The position numbers and the translations under genes were made by a program. A stretch of 7,126 nucleotides of DNA. Source: Planctomycetota bacterium. GTDB taxonomy: Bacteria; Planctomycetota; UBA1135; UBA2386. The stretch is taken from NCBI GenBank assembly GCA_020425885.1, contig JAGQRA010000191.1:1-7126 (forward strand), in the 5' to 3' direction. Positions 1-7,126 of this stretch are shown in pieces. The notes beneath the pieces are model-generated. The model worked only from the letters and a program-made list of their open reading frames with translations, was not told where the DNA came from and made no database searches. Position 1 is the first letter of the stretch, and every line of letters begins with the position of its first letter.

Positions 1-1344
1 GATGAGGATGGAGTCGCCGGTCGCGGTGGCGAGGCGGTCGCGTCCGTGCCGCACTTCACGCCGCGGGCCCGCCGCGTCGTCTATCTGTTCCAGGCCGGCG
101 GACGGTCGCCGTTCGAGACCTTCGATCCCAAACCGATGCTGCGGCGGCGGCACGGCGAGGACCTGCCGCCGTCGGTGCGCGGCGGCCAGCGGCTGACCGG
201 CATGAGCGGCTTCCAGGCGCGGTTGCCACTGGCCGGTTCGTTCGCCGGTTTCGCCCGTCACGGCGCCTGCGGTCGCGAGGTCAGCGACCTGCTGCCGCAC
301 ACGGCGCAGCTCGTCGATCGACTCTGCGTCGTACGCGCGATGCACACCGAGGCGATCAATCACGATCCGGCGATCACGTTCTTCTGCACCGGCAGCCAGA
401 TCAGCGGGCGGCCGGCGATGGGGGCCTGGGCCAGCTACGGACTCGGCAGCGACAACCGCGATCTGCCGGCGTTCGTCGTGCTGGTCAGCAAGGACGCGGC
501 GCGCGATCAGCCGCTCTACTCGCGGCTGTGGGGCACCGGCTTCCTGCCCGGCGAGCATCAGGGCGTGCAGTTCCGGCCCGGCAGCTCGCCGGTGTTGTTC
601 CTCGACAACCCCGACGGGGTCACGGTCGAGATGCGGCGGGCGCAGCTCGCGGCGCTGCGCGGTCTGCACGCCGACCAGCTCAGGCACGAAGGCGACCGCG
701 CGATCGCCGCCCGCACGGCGCAGGCCGAGCTCGCGTTCCGCATGCAGGCCAGCGTGCCCGAGGTCGCCGATGTCTCGACCGAGCCGGCGTCGGTGTTCGA
801 CCTCTACGGCGAAGGCGCGCGCGATCCCGGCAGCTACGCCGCCAACTGCCTGCTGGCGCGGCGGCTGCTCGAGCGCGGCGTGCGCTTCGTGCAGCTGTTC
901 CACCAGGGTTGGGATCAGCACGGCAACCTGCCGGCCGGCATCACGCGGCAATGCCGGCAGACCGACCAGGCGACCGCGGCGTTGCTGCTCGACCTGCAGC
1001 GGCGCGGACTGCTCGACGACACGCTCGTCGTCTGGGGCGGCGAGTTCGGCCGCACGGCCTACTGCCAGGGTCGGCTCGAGAACGGCAACTACGGTCGCGA
1101 CCATCATCCGCGCTGTTTCACGCTGTGGCTCGCCGGCGGCGGCGTGCGCGCGGGCCACGTCCACGGCGCGACCGATGACTTCGGCTACAACATCCAGGAG
1201 GGCGGGGTCCACGTGAACGACCTGCACGCGACGATGCTGCACCTGCTCGGCTTCGATCACGAACGGCTGACCTTCGCCCATCAGGGCCGCGACTTCCGTC
1301 TCACCGACGTCGCCGGCAAGGTCGTGCGCGAGCTGCTGGCGTAG
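1..1344 (+). CDS. DUF1501 family protein (alkaline-phosphatase-like fold), 5' partial
   Basis: The frame is already open at base 1 and ends at TAG 1342-1344, giving about 447 visible residues, so the N-terminus lies left of the window. Full-length DUF1501 proteins usually have an N-terminal twin-arginine-type leader and about 50 more residues, both missing here. Family signatures seen: a VVYLFQAGG strand near the visible start followed by ETFDPKP; MHTEAINHDP from 340; a GRPAMGAW stretch; WGGEFGRT at 1033-1056; GRDHHP from 1093 followed by FTLWLAGGG; and a C-terminal DLHATMLHLLG...GRDFRLTDV block. DUF1501 proteins are sulfatase/phosphatase-like, presumed exported, and abundant in Planctomycetota, where they often follow a DUF1549/DUF1553 cytochrome-type gene; whether that holds here is outside the window. 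Substrate and activity are unknown. The GTG at 46 lies inside the conserved region and is not the start. The gene converges on the selenoprotein gene. Confidence 0.93.
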   Translation, partial: DEDGVAGRGGEAVASVPHFTPRARRVVYLFQAGGRSPFETFDPKPMLRRRHGEDLPPSVRGGQRLTGMSGFQARLPLAGSFAGFARHGACGREVSDLLPHTAQLVDRLCVVRAMHTEAINHDPAITFFCTGSQISGRPAMGAWASYGLGSDNRDLPAFVVLVSKDAARDQPLYSRLWGTGFLPGEHQGVQFRPGSSPVLFLDNPDGVTVEMRRAQLAALRGLHADQLRHEGDRAIAARTAQAELAFRMQASVPEVADVSTEPASVFDLYGEGARDPGSYAANCLLARRLLERGVRFVQLFHQGWDQHGNLPAGITRQCRQTDQATAALLLDLQRRGLLDDTLVVWGGEFGRTAYCQGRLENGNYGRDHHPRCFTLWLAGGGVRAGHVHGATDDFGYNIQEGGVHVNDLHATMLHLLGFDHERLTFAHQGRDFRLTDVAGKVVRELLA

Positions 1345-1376: not shown

Positions 1377-2342
1377 TCAGTCGCGTTGGCCGGTCTTCTG
1401 CAGCTTCGCGAACGTCGCCAGCTGGCGCGGCGACAGCCACCGCTTCGGGTCGCCGCTCGCATTCGGCGCCAGCGCGGCGTTGCAGCGCGCGGCCTGGGCC
1501 GGCGTCATCGTCACCGCTTTCCATGGCGAGTGTTGCAGATAATACTTCGGCTGCTCGTCGGGCCGCGGTTCGGTCGTGAGATCGTGGACGCGATCGCCGA
1601 TGAGCCTCGCCGCGATCGCCCGCTGCGCCGCGGTCGTGGTCCAGACCCGCTGGGCGCATCCCGCGCGCAGGCCGTGCGCCAGCAGCTTCTCGAACGCGAG
1701 CACCTTCGGATCGAACCAGACCTCGGTGACCTCGAGTTCGTCGAGCCATCCGGCGCGGGTCGCGAAGACGCCATCGAGGAGGCCGAACTCGGCCTCGCCG
1801 ACCCAGAATCAAGCCTGCGAGAACACCGCGCGCTCGAGGCCGCGACGGCGGGCGAGTTCCTCGGCCGCGAGCAGGCTCAGCCATTCGGGCACCTCGTGTC
1901 CGCCGCCCCGCAGTGCGGTCACCATGCCGGTGGCCATCGCGGCCACGCTCCAGTCCTCGTGCAACCTGGGCGCCAGCGCCTTCTCGTCGGCAGCGAGGAA
2001 GCGCACGACCGGGTTGTTCCAGGCCTTCTCGGCGAAGTGCACGAGCACCTTCTCGTCGTCGTCACCCTTGGTGTTGTTCTTGATCGCCACCGGCACGAAC
2101 AGGGTCTCGGCGGCCTCGTCGATCAGATGGTGGCTCAGCACGTGAGCCCCGAAGTCGCGGCAGGTGCTTCAACCGGGCACCTCCTGGAACAGCAGCAGCA
2201 ACGGCTTGTGCTCCTGTCGGGCTGCGGTCCTGGCGGCGGCGAAGTCGCGTCGCCAATCGATGGTGCCGAACTCGGTCGTCAACTTGTCCTGGGCCGCGAC
2301 GACGGCCGTCATGGCGATGGTCGCGACATGGCGGAGGATCAT
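1377..2342 (-). CDS. Thioredoxin-like/MsrA-like fusion selenoprotein with two selenocysteines (Sec58, Sec178)
   Basis: Reading from ATG 2342-2340 to TGA 1379-1377 gives 321 residues if TGA 2171-2169 and TGA 1811-1809 are both read as selenocysteine. All three TGAs share one frame, with no TAA, TAG or frameshift, and G/C-ending codons run through both sites. Residues 1-17 resemble a short Sec signal peptide (MILRHVATIAMTAVVAA, then QD). Residues ~25-125 are thioredoxin-like: a KPLLLLFQ strand, then VPG-U58-ST-C61, and a WNNPVVRF segment whose Pro111 could be the cis-proline. Residues ~165-300 resemble MsrA: SQA-U178-FW-VGE aligns with GCFWGVE (Glu at +5 in both), followed by GVFATRAGW and EVTEVWFDPKVLAFEKLL. 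The MsrA segment normally between those two blocks is missing. Other cysteines are C229 and C287. The VPGUxT motif matches a thioredoxin-like (seleno)protein family name I recall from NCBI, unchecked. The upstream in-frame stop at 2385-2387 makes ATG 2342 the earliest ATG; ATG 2312 is the alternative. No clear Shine-Dalgarno site. Likely role: periplasmic thiol/selenol oxidoreductase or methionine-sulfoxide reductase-like enzyme. Substrate unknown. Confidence 0.9.
1779..1796 (-). promoter_or_regulatory. Candidate bacterial SECIS element for Sec178
   Basis: On the - strand, GAGGCCG (1796-1790) pairs perfectly over 7 bp with CGGCCUC (1785-1779) around the tetraloop AGUU (1789-1786), which has G at its second position and contains the GU dinucleotide. 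The stem begins 12 nt and the loop 19 nt after the UGA, close to the spacing in the E. coli fdhF SECIS. The hairpin lies within the codons for EAEFGL, so it must be compatible with the protein sequence. Confidence 0.8.
1809..1811 (-). other. Selenocysteine UGA codon 2 (Sec178, MsrA-type UFW motif)
   Basis: The TGA lies in frame directly before TTC TGG (Phe-Trp), replacing the Cys of the MsrA GCFW catalytic signature. MsrA-like sequence follows at once (FWVGEAEFG, then GVFATRAGW). A SECIS-like hairpin begins 12 nt downstream. Selenocysteine at this catalytic position is known in MsrA from Chlamydomonas and some clostridia-type bacteria. Confidence 0.88.
2129..2150 (-). promoter_or_regulatory. 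Candidate bacterial SECIS element for Sec58
   Basis: On the - strand, GGCUCA (2148-2143) pairs perfectly with UGAGCC (2137-2132) around the loop CGUGC (2142-2138). Two more G-C pairs form below a single bulged A (2149-2150 with 2129-2130). The apical loop begins 27 nt after the UGA and has G at its second position. This fits the general bacterial SECIS description: loop roughly 16-37 nt downstream with G among its first two bases. The hairpin would be recognised by SelB. No thermodynamic calculation was done. Confidence 0.75.
2169..2171 (-). other. Selenocysteine UGA codon 1 (Sec58, UxxC redox motif)
   Basis: The TGA lies in frame between GGT (Gly57) and AGC (Ser59), producing VPG-U-S-T-C, a thioredoxin-type CxxC motif with the first Cys replaced. 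Thioredoxin-like sequence continues unbroken on both sides. A SECIS-like hairpin starts about 18 bases downstream. A nonsense mutation is the alternative, but it would have to hit exactly the nucleophile position. Confidence 0.9.
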
Positions 2343-2438: not shown

Positions 2439-4184
2439 TCAGTTGCCGTTCAGCTGCTGCAGCAGTCCGAGCGACGGCGCGTAGTTCGGGTCGCAGCGCA
2501 ACGCCTCGGCGAGGCTGGCCCGCGCCTCCTGCCGCTTGCCGGTCAGGAACTGCAGGTGGGCGAGGTTGTGCCAGCCCTCGGCGTGATGCGGATCGATCTC
2601 GATGGCGCGGCGGAACGCGGCGTCGGCGTCGTGGGTACGGCCGACGACCCCGTTGGCGACGCCGAGTCCGATCCAGGCGGCGGCGTTCTCGGGGCCGGCA
2701 TCGACCGCGGCCTGGAACGCGGCGATCAGGACCTCCGGTGGCGGCGGCTTCGGCTTCGGTTCGAACAGCATGCACCAGGCGACGCCGAGCCGACCGGCCG
2801 ACAGGGTGCGGCGCACGATGCCGTTCTGTTGCGGCGGCGTGTTGTCGATGGCGCGCTGGTAGTACGCGCGCGCACTGGCGAAGCGCGCCGGGTCGCCGGC
2901 CTGGGCCTTGGTCAGGTCGAGATCGCCGGCGAGGGTCAACACGGTCGGATCCTCGGGTGAGGTGGCGAGCACGTGAGCGGTCAGGTGGTCGGCGTCGTGC
3001 CAGTTGTGGCACAGCGAGCGCGACACCGGCGCCATCGCGAGCGCCGCGATCATGAGCAGCCAGAGCCATCGCCCGCGCAGCCAGCCGGCGATGCAGATCG
3101 CGGTGCCGAGCACCGAGAGGTAGAGGTAGCGATCGCAGATCGGATGGGCGCCGATCGAACGGAAGTGCAGCATCGGCGCCAGCAACGGGATCAGCAGCAG
3201 GCAGAGGCCGATGCGGGTCGGCGGCAGCAGTCGTCCGCGGCGCCACCACAGCACGGCCGCGATCGCGATCGAAGCGCCGATGCTCGCCAAGAGCAGCGGC
3301 ACCGATGCCGGCGGCAGGGCGCGGAACGGGGTCGCCGGCAGCGGCATCACCAACAGCCCGAGATGGCGCAACAGCAGTTCGGGTGCGCGCACGAGGTTGG
3401 CGATCCCGGTCGCCGCCGGGGTCGGCTCGTTGTTGCCGAGCACGATCGCGCCGACCGCCTCCGAGAACACGACGGCGCGCAGCACGAGCCAGAGGAACAG
3501 GCCGGTGATCATCGTGATCGCGGCGGTGGCCAGGCGCATGCGGGGGCGGTGCCCGTTCGCCGTCGGCACGAAGGCCAGCGCGGCGAGCACGAGCGGCACG
3601 GTGGTGACGCCGGTCTCCTTGGCGAGCACGGCGCCGATGACCAGCAGTCCGACCAGCCACGGCGGGCCGCGCCGCTCTCGGTCGCGCCAGCGCAGCGCCG
3701 CGAGCATGGCCTGGAGCGCGAACAGGACCCACAGCGGATCGTTGAGCGAAGCCCCCCAGGCCAGGCTCTCGGTATGTACCGGATGCACGGCGAACACCAA
3801 CGTCGCCAGCAGCGCCGGGGTCGGCGCGAGCATGCGCCGGGCCAGGGCGAATCCCGCCATGCAGTTGAGCACGTGCAGCAGCAGCGACAGCGCGTGCACG
3901 CCGACGGCGCCGGCGGTGTGATGGCCGAGGAAGAACATCAGCATCGTCGCCGGTCGCCAGTAGCCGTGTTCCATGTCGAACAGCGGCTGCGTGAACATCG
4001 CCGCCGCGTCGCCGCGCAGCATGGCGCCGTTGCGGGCGATCAGGTGCAGGTCGTCGTGCACGTAGTCGCCGAACAGGGCCGGCCAGAACGTGGCCAGCAC
4101 GACGGCGACGAAGCCGGCGTGGATGGCGAGCGGCCGCAGCGGCCCGGGTCCGGTCGGGCTGCTGATGGGGGTGGACGCGGGCAT
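2439..4184 (-). CDS. Multi-spanning membrane protein, TMTC/GT-C-like, with C-terminal TPR repeats
   Basis: This 581-residue protein starts at ATG 4184-4182, 14 bases after the upstream gene's stop, and ends at TGA 2441-2439. Residues ~20-40 form a first membrane segment, followed by YVHDDLHLIARN with an acidic pair (D44-D45) at the first luminal/periplasmic loop, the usual place of the metal/catalytic acid in GT-C glycosyltransferases. Then come RPAT near 77-80, HPVHTESLAW at 134-143, AKETGVT at 188-194 and DRYLYLSVLG at 351-360. These landmarks recur in bacterial TPR membrane proteins related to eukaryotic TMTC O-mannosyltransferases. I count roughly nine or more hydrophobic segments up to residue ~385. 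Residues ~410-580 are soluble and helical, with two clear TPRs at ~500-533 and ~534-567 and a likely third near 435-500. Likely role: lipid-linked sugar transfer to exported protein, acting in the inner membrane. The substrate is not visible. No Shine-Dalgarno site; translation may be coupled to the upstream gene. Confidence 0.85.
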   Translation of the reverse strand: MPASTPISSPTGPGPLRPLAIHAGFVAVVLATFWPALFGDYVHDDLHLIARNGAMLRGDAAAMFTQPLFDMEHGYWRPATMLMFFLGHHTAGAVGVHALSLLLHVLNCMAGFALARRMLAPTPALLATLVFAVHPVHTESLAWGASLNDPLWVLFALQAMLAALRWRDRERRGPPWLVGLLVIGAVLAKETGVTTVPLVLAALAFVPTANGHRPRMRLATAAITMITGLFLWLVLRAVVFSEAVGAIVLGNNEPTPAATGIANLVRAPELLLRHLGLLVMPLPATPFRALPPASVPLLLASIGASIAIAAVLWWRRGRLLPPTRIGLCLLLIPLLAPMLHFRSIGAHPICDRYLYLSVLGTAICIAGWLRGRWLWLLMIAALAMAPVSRSLCHNWHDADHLTAHVLATSPEDPTVLTLAGDLDLTKAQAGDPARFASARAYYQRAIDNTPPQQNGIVRRTLSAGRLGVAWCMLFEPKPKPPPPEVLIAAFQAAVDAGPENAAAWIGLGVANGVVGRTHDADAAFRRAIEIDPHHAEGWHNLAHLQFLTGKRQEARASLAEALRCDPNYAPSLGLLQQLNGN

Positions 4185-4198
4185 GCGGCGGCGGCGAG

Positions 4199-7126
4199 TC
4201 AGTGCGCGGTCACCCAGATCGCGTTGCTCGCCGACACCAAGAGCGGGTTGCCGGTGTCGAGCAGCCAGGCCTGGACCGCCAGGTTCAGGCCGGATGGCAG
4301 CGGGAAGGCGAGCTGGAACGACAGTCGGAAGTGACCGTTGGCGTCGGCGGTCAGGAACGCCGGCGGCGGCGGGTTGTCGGGGATCAGGGTGCCGCCGAGG
4401 AACGGCTGGCAGTCGATCGAGGTGCCGTAGAGCAGCGCGACCGGTGCGAACGGCAGCGCGCCGTTCAGCTCCAGGGTCTGGGTCGTGCCGGCCACGAGTC
4501 GGCCGTTGCCGACCAGCCACGGCGTCTGCGCGTTCGATCCCGGCAGGGCAAAGCCGAGGTCGACCCACTTGTCGACGAGCGCCTCGCGGCAGCGGATCGC
4601 GAGGTAGAGCGTGTTGCGCTGGGTGACGGCGAGGCCGACGTTGCTGCCGGTGGCAGGGCTCGCGTCGCGGAACAGCAGCCCGCCCAGGGTGTTGACCGGG
4701 CCATCGGCGCGTCGGTCCGGGATCGACGTCGCGCGCAGTGCTGTCACCTTCGCGACCAGCCTGAACCTGTGGCCGGGCGGCAGCAGCCAGTCGACGGCGA
4801 GGAAACTGCGGCGATTGCGGCTCGAGGTGGTCCGGTTCAGCGTGCCGTTCTGGACCAGCACCGGGCTCGACAGTTGGGTCACATCCCACAGCGCCACGTT
4901 GAACGGACCATTGGGGCCGGTGACCGGAGCCGCGAGTTGGCCATCGAGCACGATCTCGGCGATGCGGACGTGATCCGGCGCATTGTTGGTGTCGAAGTCG
5001 AGACCGACGAACTGGTCCGGGTTCGGCGCCTGGCTCGGCGCCGGGTTCGGCGTCGTGGCCGTCGGCAGGCGCAGGCCGCCGCCGCTGGTGAACAGCGGTG
5101 GTGCCTCGTGGATGCTCGGTCGCATCTCGAAGCCGTTGATGCGGACCACGCCGCTGCGGAAGACCAGGATCTCGCGATCCGTGAGGGTGGCGAAGTCGAT
5201 CGAACCGAGCGCCGGGTTGACGTGCTTGTCGACGCGGTGGATGCCCTCTGCGGACCGGGTCGGGAAGTTGACGACGACGTCGAAACGCAGGTCGACGGCG
5301 GGATCGCCCGGATCCGGATCCTGCGGCAGCGCGAAGTGCAGCGCGTACTCGTTCTGGTTGAGGTAGCCGTGCCCGCTGGCCGTGAACTTGCGTCGCACGA
5401 CGTCGGTCTCGCCGGCGATCATGATCGTCACCGCGGCGCCGAACTCGGTCTGCAGTCCGGCGGCGACGGTCGCCGAATCGCGCAGCGGCTGGACGCGGAC
5501 GTAGCGTCGGTCCGCCGCCGGCGTCGTCGTGTCATAGAGTGTGTTCTCGTAGAAGTGCGCGGTGTTGAGCCAATTGCCGAGGGCGCAGTCGAGGTCGCCG
5601 TCGTGGTCCCAGTCGCCCCAGGCCGGTGTCGCCGACGTCAGGTGGTAGCTCGGGATGCCGTGCGTGGCGACGGTGAACTGCCGGGTGCCGGTCTCGACCA
5701 GCATGTTGCGGCGGAATACCTGTCGCGTCGTGAAGTCGATGTCGCCGTCGTTGTCCCAGTCCTCGGCCGACATGCCGAGGTCGAGGCCGATCGATGCGCT
5801 GGTGATGATCGTGGGTTCACCCTGGAAGAACATGCCATCGCCGTAGCTCTCCCACAGCTTCACGCCCTGCGAGGTGTAGACGACGAACAGGTCCTCGTCG
5901 CCATCCATGTCGTAGTCGAAGAACATCGCGCCTTCGTCGAGCTGGTTCTGCAGGCCGATGCCCGCGGCGGCGGCGGTCAGGGCGTCGAAGTCGATGCCCT
6001 GGGTCGTCCGGTTCTGGTAGAGGGTGCCGTTGCTGTAGAGGTCGAGGTCGCCGTCGTGATCGACGTCGCAGAACTGCGCGCCCTCGGGCCGGTAGCTCGT
6101 GGTCGGATTGTCCAGGCCCGAGGCGGCGCTGGTCTCCTGGAAGCGGTAGGCGCCGCTCGGGCCGGTCGGGCCGAGGTTGGTCCAGAAGAAGTTGCCGACG
6201 CTCGTGACCCAGGGCGGGTAGACCGGCAGGAACAGATCGAGATCGCCGTCGTTGTCGACGTCGGCCCACCCGGCGGTCTCGGCATCGAGGCCGCACGGCT
6301 CGGTGATGATGGTGCCGGCCGGCGTCGCGACTTCGGCGAAGGTCGCGCCGATGCCGAGGTTCTGCAGCAGGTGGAAACACCTGTCGGCGCCGTTGCAGCA
6401 GGCGCGCGGTTCGACGGCGAGGTCCGGGAAGCCGTCGTTGTCGTAGTCGCCGAACGACGAACCGTAGCGATACACGGTCGGCATCAGGATCTGCGTCGGC
6501 GATTGGTCGAGGTCGGCGACCAGCTGCCAACCGGTGCCCTGCAGATTGCGCCACAGCCGGGCCGACTGCAGGCAGAACACGTCGATCCAGCCGTCGCGAT
6601 CGTAGTCGCCGAACGACACGCCGTTGGAGCTGCCGAAGTCCAGTCCCGTCGGGAAGGTGGTGTTGGTCCACAGCGCGAGCGGCACGTCGAAGACCAGCGA
6701 CGGGCCGGGTGGTTTGCTCGTCGGCAGCCAGGTCATGGTGTAGGTGGCACCGGTCTCGGCCCCGGGGCGCAGGTCACCGAAGTCCCAGACGCGCCGGGTC
6801 ACGCCGGCCGGCGGTTCGGTCAGCCAGCTGCACCGGTCCATCGGGAAGCTGATGCCCGATCCCGTCGGATCCTGCCATTCGCGCGTGGCGAAGACGTCGT
6901 GCAGCGTGGTCGGGCCGCTGTTGCGCAGCAGCAGCTGCACGATGAGTCGCGGCCCGTCGGGGTCGAAACGGAACGTCGAGGTGATGTGTAGCGACGGTGC
7001 TTTCGTCACGACCTCGACCGCGTGCGGCGACGCCTTCATCGCGACCGGGAGCAGCGGGGCGCGGTTGGCCCAGTCGGCGACGAGGCCGGCGGCACCGGCC
7101 TCGACGACGCCATCGGCGTCGACGTA
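4199..7126 (-). CDS. Secreted VCBS/FG-GAP repeat protein with ASPIC/UnbV domain, 5' partial
   Basis: The frame is open from the right edge to TGA 4201-4199, giving about 975 visible residues. The ATG at 7039-7037 is probably internal, because 29 more in-frame residues precede it without a stop; the true start and any signal peptide lie outside the window. Numbered from that Met: ~15-120 is a beta-rich segment. Residues 145-484 hold seven calcium-type DxDxDGxxD motifs spaced 49-65 residues apart, as in an FG-GAP/VCBS beta-propeller. Residues ~530-615 match ASPIC/UnbV (EFGAAVTIMIAG, then SGHGYLNQNEYALHFALP). Residues ~630-800 form an unassigned beta-rich region. Residues ~815-946 resemble a C-terminal module I associate with large exported Planctomycetota proteins (WVDLGFALPG, then GNGRLVAGTTQTLEL). 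Likely an extracellular or surface calcium-binding protein; ligand unknown. Stop codon is TGA. It is the first visible gene of the three-gene - strand unit. Confidence 0.92.
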   Translation of the reverse strand, partial: YVDADGVVEAGAAGLVADWANRAPLLPVAMKASPHAVEVVTKAPSLHITSTFRFDPDGPRLIVQLLLRNSGPTTLHDVFATREWQDPTGSGISFPMDRCSWLTEPPAGVTRRVWDFGDLRPGAETGATYTMTWLPTSKPPGPSLVFDVPLALWTNTTFPTGLDFGSSNGVSFGDYDRDGWIDVFCLQSARLWRNLQGTGWQLVADLDQSPTQILMPTVYRYGSSFGDYDNDGFPDLAVEPRACCNGADRCFHLLQNLGIGATFAEVATPAGTIITEPCGLDAETAGWADVDNDGDLDLFLPVYPPWVTSVGNFFWTNLGPTGPSGAYRFQETSAASGLDNPTTSYRPEGAQFCDVDHDGDLDLYSNGTLYQNRTTQGIDFDALTAAAAGIGLQNQLDEGAMFFDYDMDGDEDLFVVYTSQGVKLWESYGDGMFFQGEPTIITSASIGLDLGMSAEDWDNDGDIDFTTRQVFRRNMLVETGTRQFTVATHGIPSYHLTSATPAWGDWDHDGDLDCALGNWLNTAHFYENTLYDTTTPAADRRYVRVQPLRDSATVAAGLQTEFGAAVTIMIAGETDVVRRKFTASGHGYLNQNEYALHFALPQDPDPGDPAVDLRFDVVVNFPTRSAEGIHRVDKHVNPALGSIDFATLTDREILVFRSGVVRINGFEMRPSIHEAPPLFTSGGGLRLPTATTPNPAPSQAPNPDQFVGLDFDTNNAPDHVRIAEIVLDGQLAAPVTGPNGPFNVALWDVTQLSSPVLVQNGTLNRTTSSRNRRSFLAVDWLLPPGHRFRLVAKVTALRATSIPDRRADGPVNTLGGLLFRDASPATGSNVGLAVTQRNTLYLAIRCREALVDKWVDLGFALPGSNAQTPWLVGNGRLVAGTTQTLELNGALPFAPVALLYGTSIDCQPFLGGTLIPDNPPPPAFLTADANGHFRLSFQLAFPLPSGLNLAVQAWLLDTGNPLLVSASNAIWVTAH
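5588..6607 (-). repeat. Seven degenerate calcium-motif repeats within the VCBS/FG-GAP propeller
   Basis: In coding order the motifs are DYDRDGWID, DYDNDGFPD, DVDNDGDLD, DVDHDGDLD, DYDMDGDED, DWDNDGDID and DWDHDGDLD, starting at residues 145, 198, 260, 325, 375, 427 and 476 counted from the Met at 7039. Several are preceded by Gly or Phe-Cys on a hydrophobic strand. Spacing of 49-65 residues fits one motif per propeller blade, so a seven-bladed propeller is the simplest reading. At DNA level they appear on the + strand as recurrent gtcgccgtcgtggtcc-like stretches, which explains the visible nucleotide repetitiveness here. Confidence 0.85.

Follow-up and report, generated by a model that had tools for sequence, protein, structure and literature searches.

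Proteins of the VPGUxxT family of thioredoxin-like (seleno)proteins, type 2 (NCBIfam: NF041383), are already catalogued as a selenoprotein family, and selenium is also known from an enzyme of sulfoxide repair, the methionine sulfoxide reductase MsrA of Clostridium oremlandii. According to the title of reference 14 in PMC4479559, a selenoprotein glutaredoxin reduces the selenoprotein MsrA in this organism, and the two are separate proteins. The Neisseria protein PilB is reduced by DsbD, as stated in the accessible part of PMC6210582, and the accessible part of PMC4807772 reports selenoproteins in planctomycetes from a red alga. Here we describe a gene in a stretch of 7,126 nucleotides (the window) from contig JAGQRA010000191.1 of a Planctomycetota bacterium, whose reading frame is interrupted by two TGA codons. 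Judged from the sequence and a structure model, the gene probably encodes one chain with a thioredoxin-like and a shortened MsrA-like domain, each with a TGA codon at its redox-active position. Selenocysteine (Sec) is the likely reading of both TGAs, and the predicted product is an exported reductase of methionine sulfoxide or a similar sulfoxide that recharges itself.

The minus strand of the window from 2342 to 1377 holds a single frame of 321 codons plus a terminal TGA (1379-1377), beginning with an ATG (2342-2340). There are exactly two internal stops in this frame, both TGA, at codons 58 (site 1) and 178 (site 2), just as the first-pass annotation of this DNA had described without naming a strand. 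It had also foreseen what an ordinary gene caller would return instead, and the two fragments of 108 and 110 amino acids as well as a 332-amino-acid antisense open reading frame are indeed present. Elsewhere in the window TGA is a normal stop, because both minus-strand neighbour genes terminate in TGA (2441-2439 and 4201-4199). The codon-position differences in the gene fit selection along its entire length.

The read-through protein matches NF041383 with 395.5 bits (cut-off 275) over residues 24-310, corresponding to model positions 1-286 of 287 and spanning both TGAs. This family requires a Cys or Sec after VPG, the position taken by the TGA at codon 58, and its cut-off is also passed by all eight TGA-form relatives that were scored out of 39 in hand. 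The type 1 family (NCBIfam: NF041382) is matched by the N-terminal half only and does not reach its cut-off (109.3 of 350 bits). In a Pfam scan, Thioredoxin_7 was found (2.5e-09), followed by a sub-threshold MsrA match from residue 172. A single-sequence query of viral contigs gave no relative. Among 310 reported database homologues, 118 of the best 120 were aligned with the window protein, and Cys is invariant at columns 58 and 178 in all of them; as these entries stem from ordinary gene calling, the alignment is skewed to Cys forms.

To see the codons themselves, DNA was collected for the best 80 of 429 relatives and from 392 genomes of the phylum of the relative L001, 154 genomes of its class and 57 genomes of the phylum of L048. 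A match was found in 39 of the 392, 39 of the 154 (40 matches) and 13 of the 57 genomes, and the DNA was read for 30 of 39, 30 of 40 and 13 of 13 matches, respectively. After six duplicates had been dropped from the first set and ten from the second, codons were read in 132 distinct genes, of which 31 are TGA/TGA (window included), 9 TGA/Cys, 90 Cys/Cys and none Cys/TGA. The other two are L124, which lacks its first half and has TGA at the second site, and L157. Both columns thus hold Cys or TGA, as the first-pass annotation had expected of homologues, with L157 as the single exception: it reads EIHGG in place of EVPGC at site 1 and has lost the first redox residue, while keeping Cys178. With the family match running across both TGAs, Cys invariant in the homologues and TGA/TGA in 30 other genes, the earlier claim that the two TGAs go beyond chance holds.

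A sequencing error, a pseudogene or a general recoding of TGA could also put stops into a frame, and stray TGAs do occur in this family. In L017, a Cys/Cys relative, the second codon past site 2, where the CFW motif has its Trp, reads TGA, probably as noise, error or decay. However, the same two codons are TGA in 31 distinct genes. All internal stops in the 79 matches of the two whole-genome searches (39 and 40, eight common to both) are TGA, with no TAA or TAG among them, and the 13 matches of the L048 phylum have no internal stop. Together with the TGA-ending neighbours and the codon-position pattern of a selected gene, this led us to reject error, pseudogene and recoding, which we regard as exceedingly improbable.

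The double-TGA form is widespread and not confined to the window. Among the 40 matches in the class of L001, some of them partial, it is the commonest form, with two TGAs in 19, one in 7 and none in 14. This six-frame result contrasts with the aligned database homologues, which are Cys/Cys throughout; the protein database mainly holds the Cys versions because ordinary gene calling splits the TGA genes.

A tree was built from 104 proteins after masking of the two Sec columns and without 13 double-TGA genes that were found later; 51 of its 101 inner branches are well supported. The window clusters with L001 and L002 (support 100/99), and the double-TGA label needs 3 changes on the tree compared with a mean of 16.8 for shuffled labels. 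For the single sites the counts are 6 changes (Sec at 58) and 3 changes (Sec at 178). Since there is no Cys/TGA gene among the 130 classified, the second Sec seems, from these sequences, to be restricted to genes that have the first. The same count bears on the explanation that only one of the two TGAs is decoded as Sec here, the other being a stop or a decayed codon. The 9 distinct TGA/Cys genes, the one Sec listed for the known family entry in the accessible part of PMC13188914 and the weak hairpin at site 1 (see below) speak for it. Both TGAs and the frame downstream are nevertheless kept in 30 other genes, and the differences along the gene fit selection over the whole length, so that we consider decoding of a single TGA improbable.

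The machinery for Sec was counted in the genomes of the relatives, a set that includes neither the window nor the 13 later-found double-TGA genes. SelB is above its curated cut-off in 17 of 17 TGA/TGA genomes and 6 of 6 TGA/Cys genomes (23 of 23 with a TGA form), compared with 15 of the 47 Cys/Cys genomes tested (2/4, 7/36 and 6/7 in three sets) and 2 of 14 control genomes. Ten further genomes comprise nine with matches whose codons were unread and one with the cut gene L124; eight of them have SelB, and the two without it are G028, with a match that has no internal stop, and G244, with a partial match that has one TGA. A tRNA-Sec above the cut-off was found in 16 of 17 TGA/TGA and 5 of 6 TGA/Cys genomes (21 of 23); the two misses both carry SelB, and their candidates were scored in part. 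The tRNA-Sec test is loose: five of the 14 control genomes also pass, and three of these five have no SelB at the cut-off. No tRNA was found in the window, and Rfam gave nothing at gathering level there, with four far-sub-threshold matches around the gene.

A covarying hairpin resembling a selenocysteine insertion sequence (SECIS) after TGA 178 is well supported by the sequence comparisons. Across 18 double-TGA genes 93.6% of the cells are paired and four of the seven pairs are changed on both sides; when the stem partner is slid, pairing falls to 26-57%. RNAalifold predicts the same seven pairs. Compared with versions of each gene in which its synonymous codons had been shuffled, the double-TGA genes of the first set (n=18) have a mean z score of -1.85 at this site and the Cys genes (n=80) one of -0.17; among the held-out genes the values are -1.03 for double-TGA (n=13) and -0.36 for Cys genes (n=19, nine of which repeat first-set genes). 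A register-free test, with 48 Cys genes for comparison (a random 38 of the first 80 plus 10 new ones), gave p values of 4e-07 for the first set and 0.009 for the held-out set.

After TGA 58 the hairpin is a SECIS candidate, less certain than the one at site 2. In the alignment (columns 22-43) 82.6% of the cells are paired and four pairs show changes on both sides, a number equalled in 86 of 500 shuffles. The mean z score in the first set is -1.54 for TGA/TGA, -0.53 for TGA/Cys (n=6) and -0.21 for Cys genes, and the register-free test gave p = 0.0014. In the window itself a rival pairing, AGCAC with GUGCU directly after the TGA, competes with the candidate hairpin. Six genes (L148, L149, L151, L153, L154 and L156) have their site-1 hairpin about 11 bases past the TGA, compared with about 18 in the window and others, with held-out stems such as GACCUUC/GAAGGUC or GGCCUUC/GAAGGCC. 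A SECIS that shifts its register between genes is possible; a hairpin of one fixed position was rejected, as it fails on the held-out genes. The first-pass annotation had placed a hairpin after each TGA, which covariation and the held-out genes bear out at site 2 and which site 1 bears out only in part.

The AlphaFold model of the protein has a predicted local distance difference test (pLDDT) score of 94, with low confidence at residues 1-20, and export is predicted from the N-terminal signal-like stretch. In this model the closest solved fold to the C-terminal domain is the natural seleno-MsrA of C. oremlandii; in the sequence alignment residue 178 falls on its Sec16 and Glu204 on its catalytic Glu55. 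Besides the MsrA fold in the model, the hallmarks of MsrA are present in the nucleophile codon 178, F179, W180 and E204. No MsrB (SelR) domain was matched in the protein at E values up to 1. Of the two domains proposed in the first-pass annotation, both folds stand; the MsrA-like one has to be corrected to a shortened domain below the curated MsrA cut-offs.

We propose a reaction cycle on this basis. Sec178 would attack the sulfoxide while Glu204 would donate a proton, and a selenenic acid would form. Cys229, which stands in place of a Tyr on the mobile L2 loop of MsrA, may then resolve Sec178, and the Sec58-x-x-Cys61 pair of the thioredoxin-like domain would reduce the resulting bond. A DsbD-like partner would finally re-reduce the thioredoxin-like domain, comparable to the thioredoxin-like N-terminal domain of Neisseria PilB.

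Several results weigh against reading the protein as a double-Sec sulfoxide reductase. At site 1, RNAalifold finds no structure when all 24 TGA genes are used and a weak one with 18, the fixed window fails in held-out genes (mean z score -0.08, compared with -0.56 in Cys genes) and the register-free test gives p = 0.12 there; because of these results and the competing fold, site 1 is a candidate and not a settled SECIS. The genome G244, with its partial, unread one-TGA match, is without SelB at the cut-off despite a tRNA-Sec match of 72.7 bits, which counts against a perfect rule linking TGA and SelB. The MsrA-like domain scores 17.8 bits with TIGR00401 (cut-off 108.1) and 18.8 bits with PMSR (Pfam: PF01625; cut-off 23.7), below both cut-offs, and is without much of the L1 loop. 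Of 102 rows, 22 have no Cys229, among them 2 of the 16 double-TGA rows with a residue there. All ten rows without Cys61 lack Cys229 as well, a covariation of no more than two independent pairs. Moreover, canonical MsrA genes stand beside some copies, so the job of the protein could differ.

This last point comes from a post hoc observation in 97 loci with unequal flanks, scanned for open reading frames of at least 100 amino acids. In 7 of the 97 loci, about five lineages by the tree, the aligned part of the gene has a canonical MsrA, MsrB or MsrBA gene at a distance of 76-246 base pairs. One of the seven is beside a TGA/Cys gene and none beside a double-TGA gene, where 11 of the 18 double-TGA loci have flanks of about 1.5 kilobases or less; no Msr neighbour was found in the window. 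Such neighbours support a role in sulfoxide repair and also show that the protein is no mere substitute for MsrA.

A double selenoprotein could also act on a substrate other than methionine sulfoxide, such as another sulfoxide, a selenoxide, a peroxide or a thiol adduct. The reduced L1 loop, the Tyr replaced by Cys229, the low MsrA scores and the canonical MsrA genes near some relatives all point that way, while the retained nucleophile position, the F/Y-W pair, the catalytic Glu (104 of 104 rows), the fold closest to a working seleno-MsrA and the Msr genes as neighbours point back to methionine sulfoxide. On balance we regard another substrate as rather unlikely and prefer the self-recharging reductase of methionine sulfoxide or a similar sulfoxide.

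The coordinates of all features are given in Table 1. The neighbourhoods of double-TGA genes have little in common beyond the DUF1501 gene (window, L002 and L114) and the upstream membrane protein with tetratricopeptide repeats (TPR; window and L002).

Table 1. Features of the read-through gene, its neighbours in the window and Msr genes next to relatives (positions refer to the window unless a locus is named).
Feature	Position	Strand	Remark
Read-through gene, VPGUxxT type 2 (NF041383)	1377..2342	-	frame reading and family match
Signal peptide (likely), residues 1-18	2289..2342	-	basic start, hydrophobic stretch, A-A-Q; read by eye
Thioredoxin-like domain, residues 27-150	1893..2264	-	DsbD-gamma/DsbH-like
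TGA codon 58, predicted Sec of UxxC motif (U-S-T-C)	2169..2171	-	context FQEVPG-U-STC; frame and homologue Cys column
Cys61, second residue of UxxC motif	2160..2162	-	Cys in 94/104 rows and 18/18 double-TGA rows
Candidate SECIS hairpin, site 1	2129..2150	-	18 bases past TGA
MsrA-like domain, residues 168-318	1389..1841	-	L1 loop shorter by about 13 residues
TGA codon 178, predicted Sec	1809..1811	-	context FSQA-U-FWVG; aligned with Sec16 of C. oremlandii MsrA
SECIS-like hairpin, site 2	1779..1796	-	12 bases past TGA; 7-base-pair stem GAGGCCG/CGGCCUC, loop AGUU
Glu204	1731..1733	-	invariant in 104/104 rows; aligned with catalytic Glu55 of C. oremlandii MsrA
Cys229, proposed resolving Cys (putative role)	1656..1658	-	aligned with MsrA Tyr90 (L2 loop)
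DUF1501 protein	46-1344	+	Pfam 3e-153; convergent with the gene; neighbour common to L002 and L114
Protein with C-terminal TPR repeats and many hydrophobic stretches	2439-4175	-	just upstream; relative upstream in L002
Large FG-GAP-repeat protein	4199-7039	-	weak UnbV_ASPIC match
Msr neighbour (MsrA, MsrB or MsrBA)	L023:6987-8042		
Msr neighbour (MsrA, MsrB or MsrBA)	L051:1877-2578		
Msr neighbour (MsrA, MsrB or MsrBA)	L040:1398-2087		
Msr neighbour (MsrA, MsrB or MsrBA)	L042:2265-2939		
Msr neighbour (MsrA, MsrB or MsrBA)	L053:5021-5752		
Msr neighbour (MsrA, MsrB or MsrBA)	L069:4152-4844		
Msr neighbour (MsrA, MsrB or MsrBA)	L113:940-1407		

Going further, and tentatively, the protein might be a single-chain selenium relay outside the cytoplasm, in which Sec178 acts on protein-bound sulfoxide and is recharged by Sec58-Cys61 of the same molecule, so that selenium is both donor and acceptor. 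In this picture the double-Sec form would be the commonest version of the family in one planctomycete class, with the second Sec having evolved only in copies that had the first; we hold it possible, short of probable. The natural series of Cys/Cys, Sec/Cys and Sec/Sec forms bears on why and in which order selenium replaces sulfur, and the gene offers a small and testable example of a redox relay with selenium at either end.

One correction to the first-pass annotation is that the family itself is known as a selenoprotein family (NF041383, and the accessible part of PMC13188914); what is new, relative to the literature searched, is the second Sec. No report of a second Sec in this family was found in the open-licence literature searched; the curation note of NF041383 may mention one, and the candidates in S9 Table of PMC4807772 may include the family. 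Bacterial proteins with several Sec residues had been called rare, and they are few, but Table 1 of PMC13188914, in its accessible part, lists examples with two or three. One of these, the arsenite methyltransferase/AhpD selenoprotein (NCBIfam: NF041537) with three Sec, resembles the window protein in having several Sec in one chain and differs in its chemistry, judged by its name.

The closest described system is NF041383 itself, called OS_HP5 in the accessible part of PMC13188914, which the window protein matches over its whole length and with which it shares the VPGU motif. Table 1 of that source gives one Sec for the family, and the window gene adds a second TGA in the MsrA-like domain. 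The thioredoxin-like half has the fold of the C-terminal (gamma) domain of DsbD, of DsbH and of 3f9u, and differs from these in its UxxC motif and in its fusion to an MsrA-like domain. Neisseria PilB, a periplasmic protein with thioredoxin-like, MsrA and MsrB domains (accessible part of PMC6210582), likewise joins thioredoxin-like and Msr domains in one chain, whereas the window protein has no MsrB domain, a DsbD-gamma/DsbH-like thioredoxin domain and TGA at both sites. With the seleno-MsrA of C. oremlandii (4u66 and 4lwj; PMC4479559 as far as accessible) it shares the fold, the position of the Sec nucleophile, the F-W pair and the catalytic Glu. The C. oremlandii enzyme is a separate, Cys-free protein reduced by glutaredoxin, whereas the window protein is shortened, has Cys229, is fused to a seleno-thioredoxin domain and is probably exported. 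A pair analogous to the glutaredoxin and MsrA of C. oremlandii would thus be fused in the window protein.
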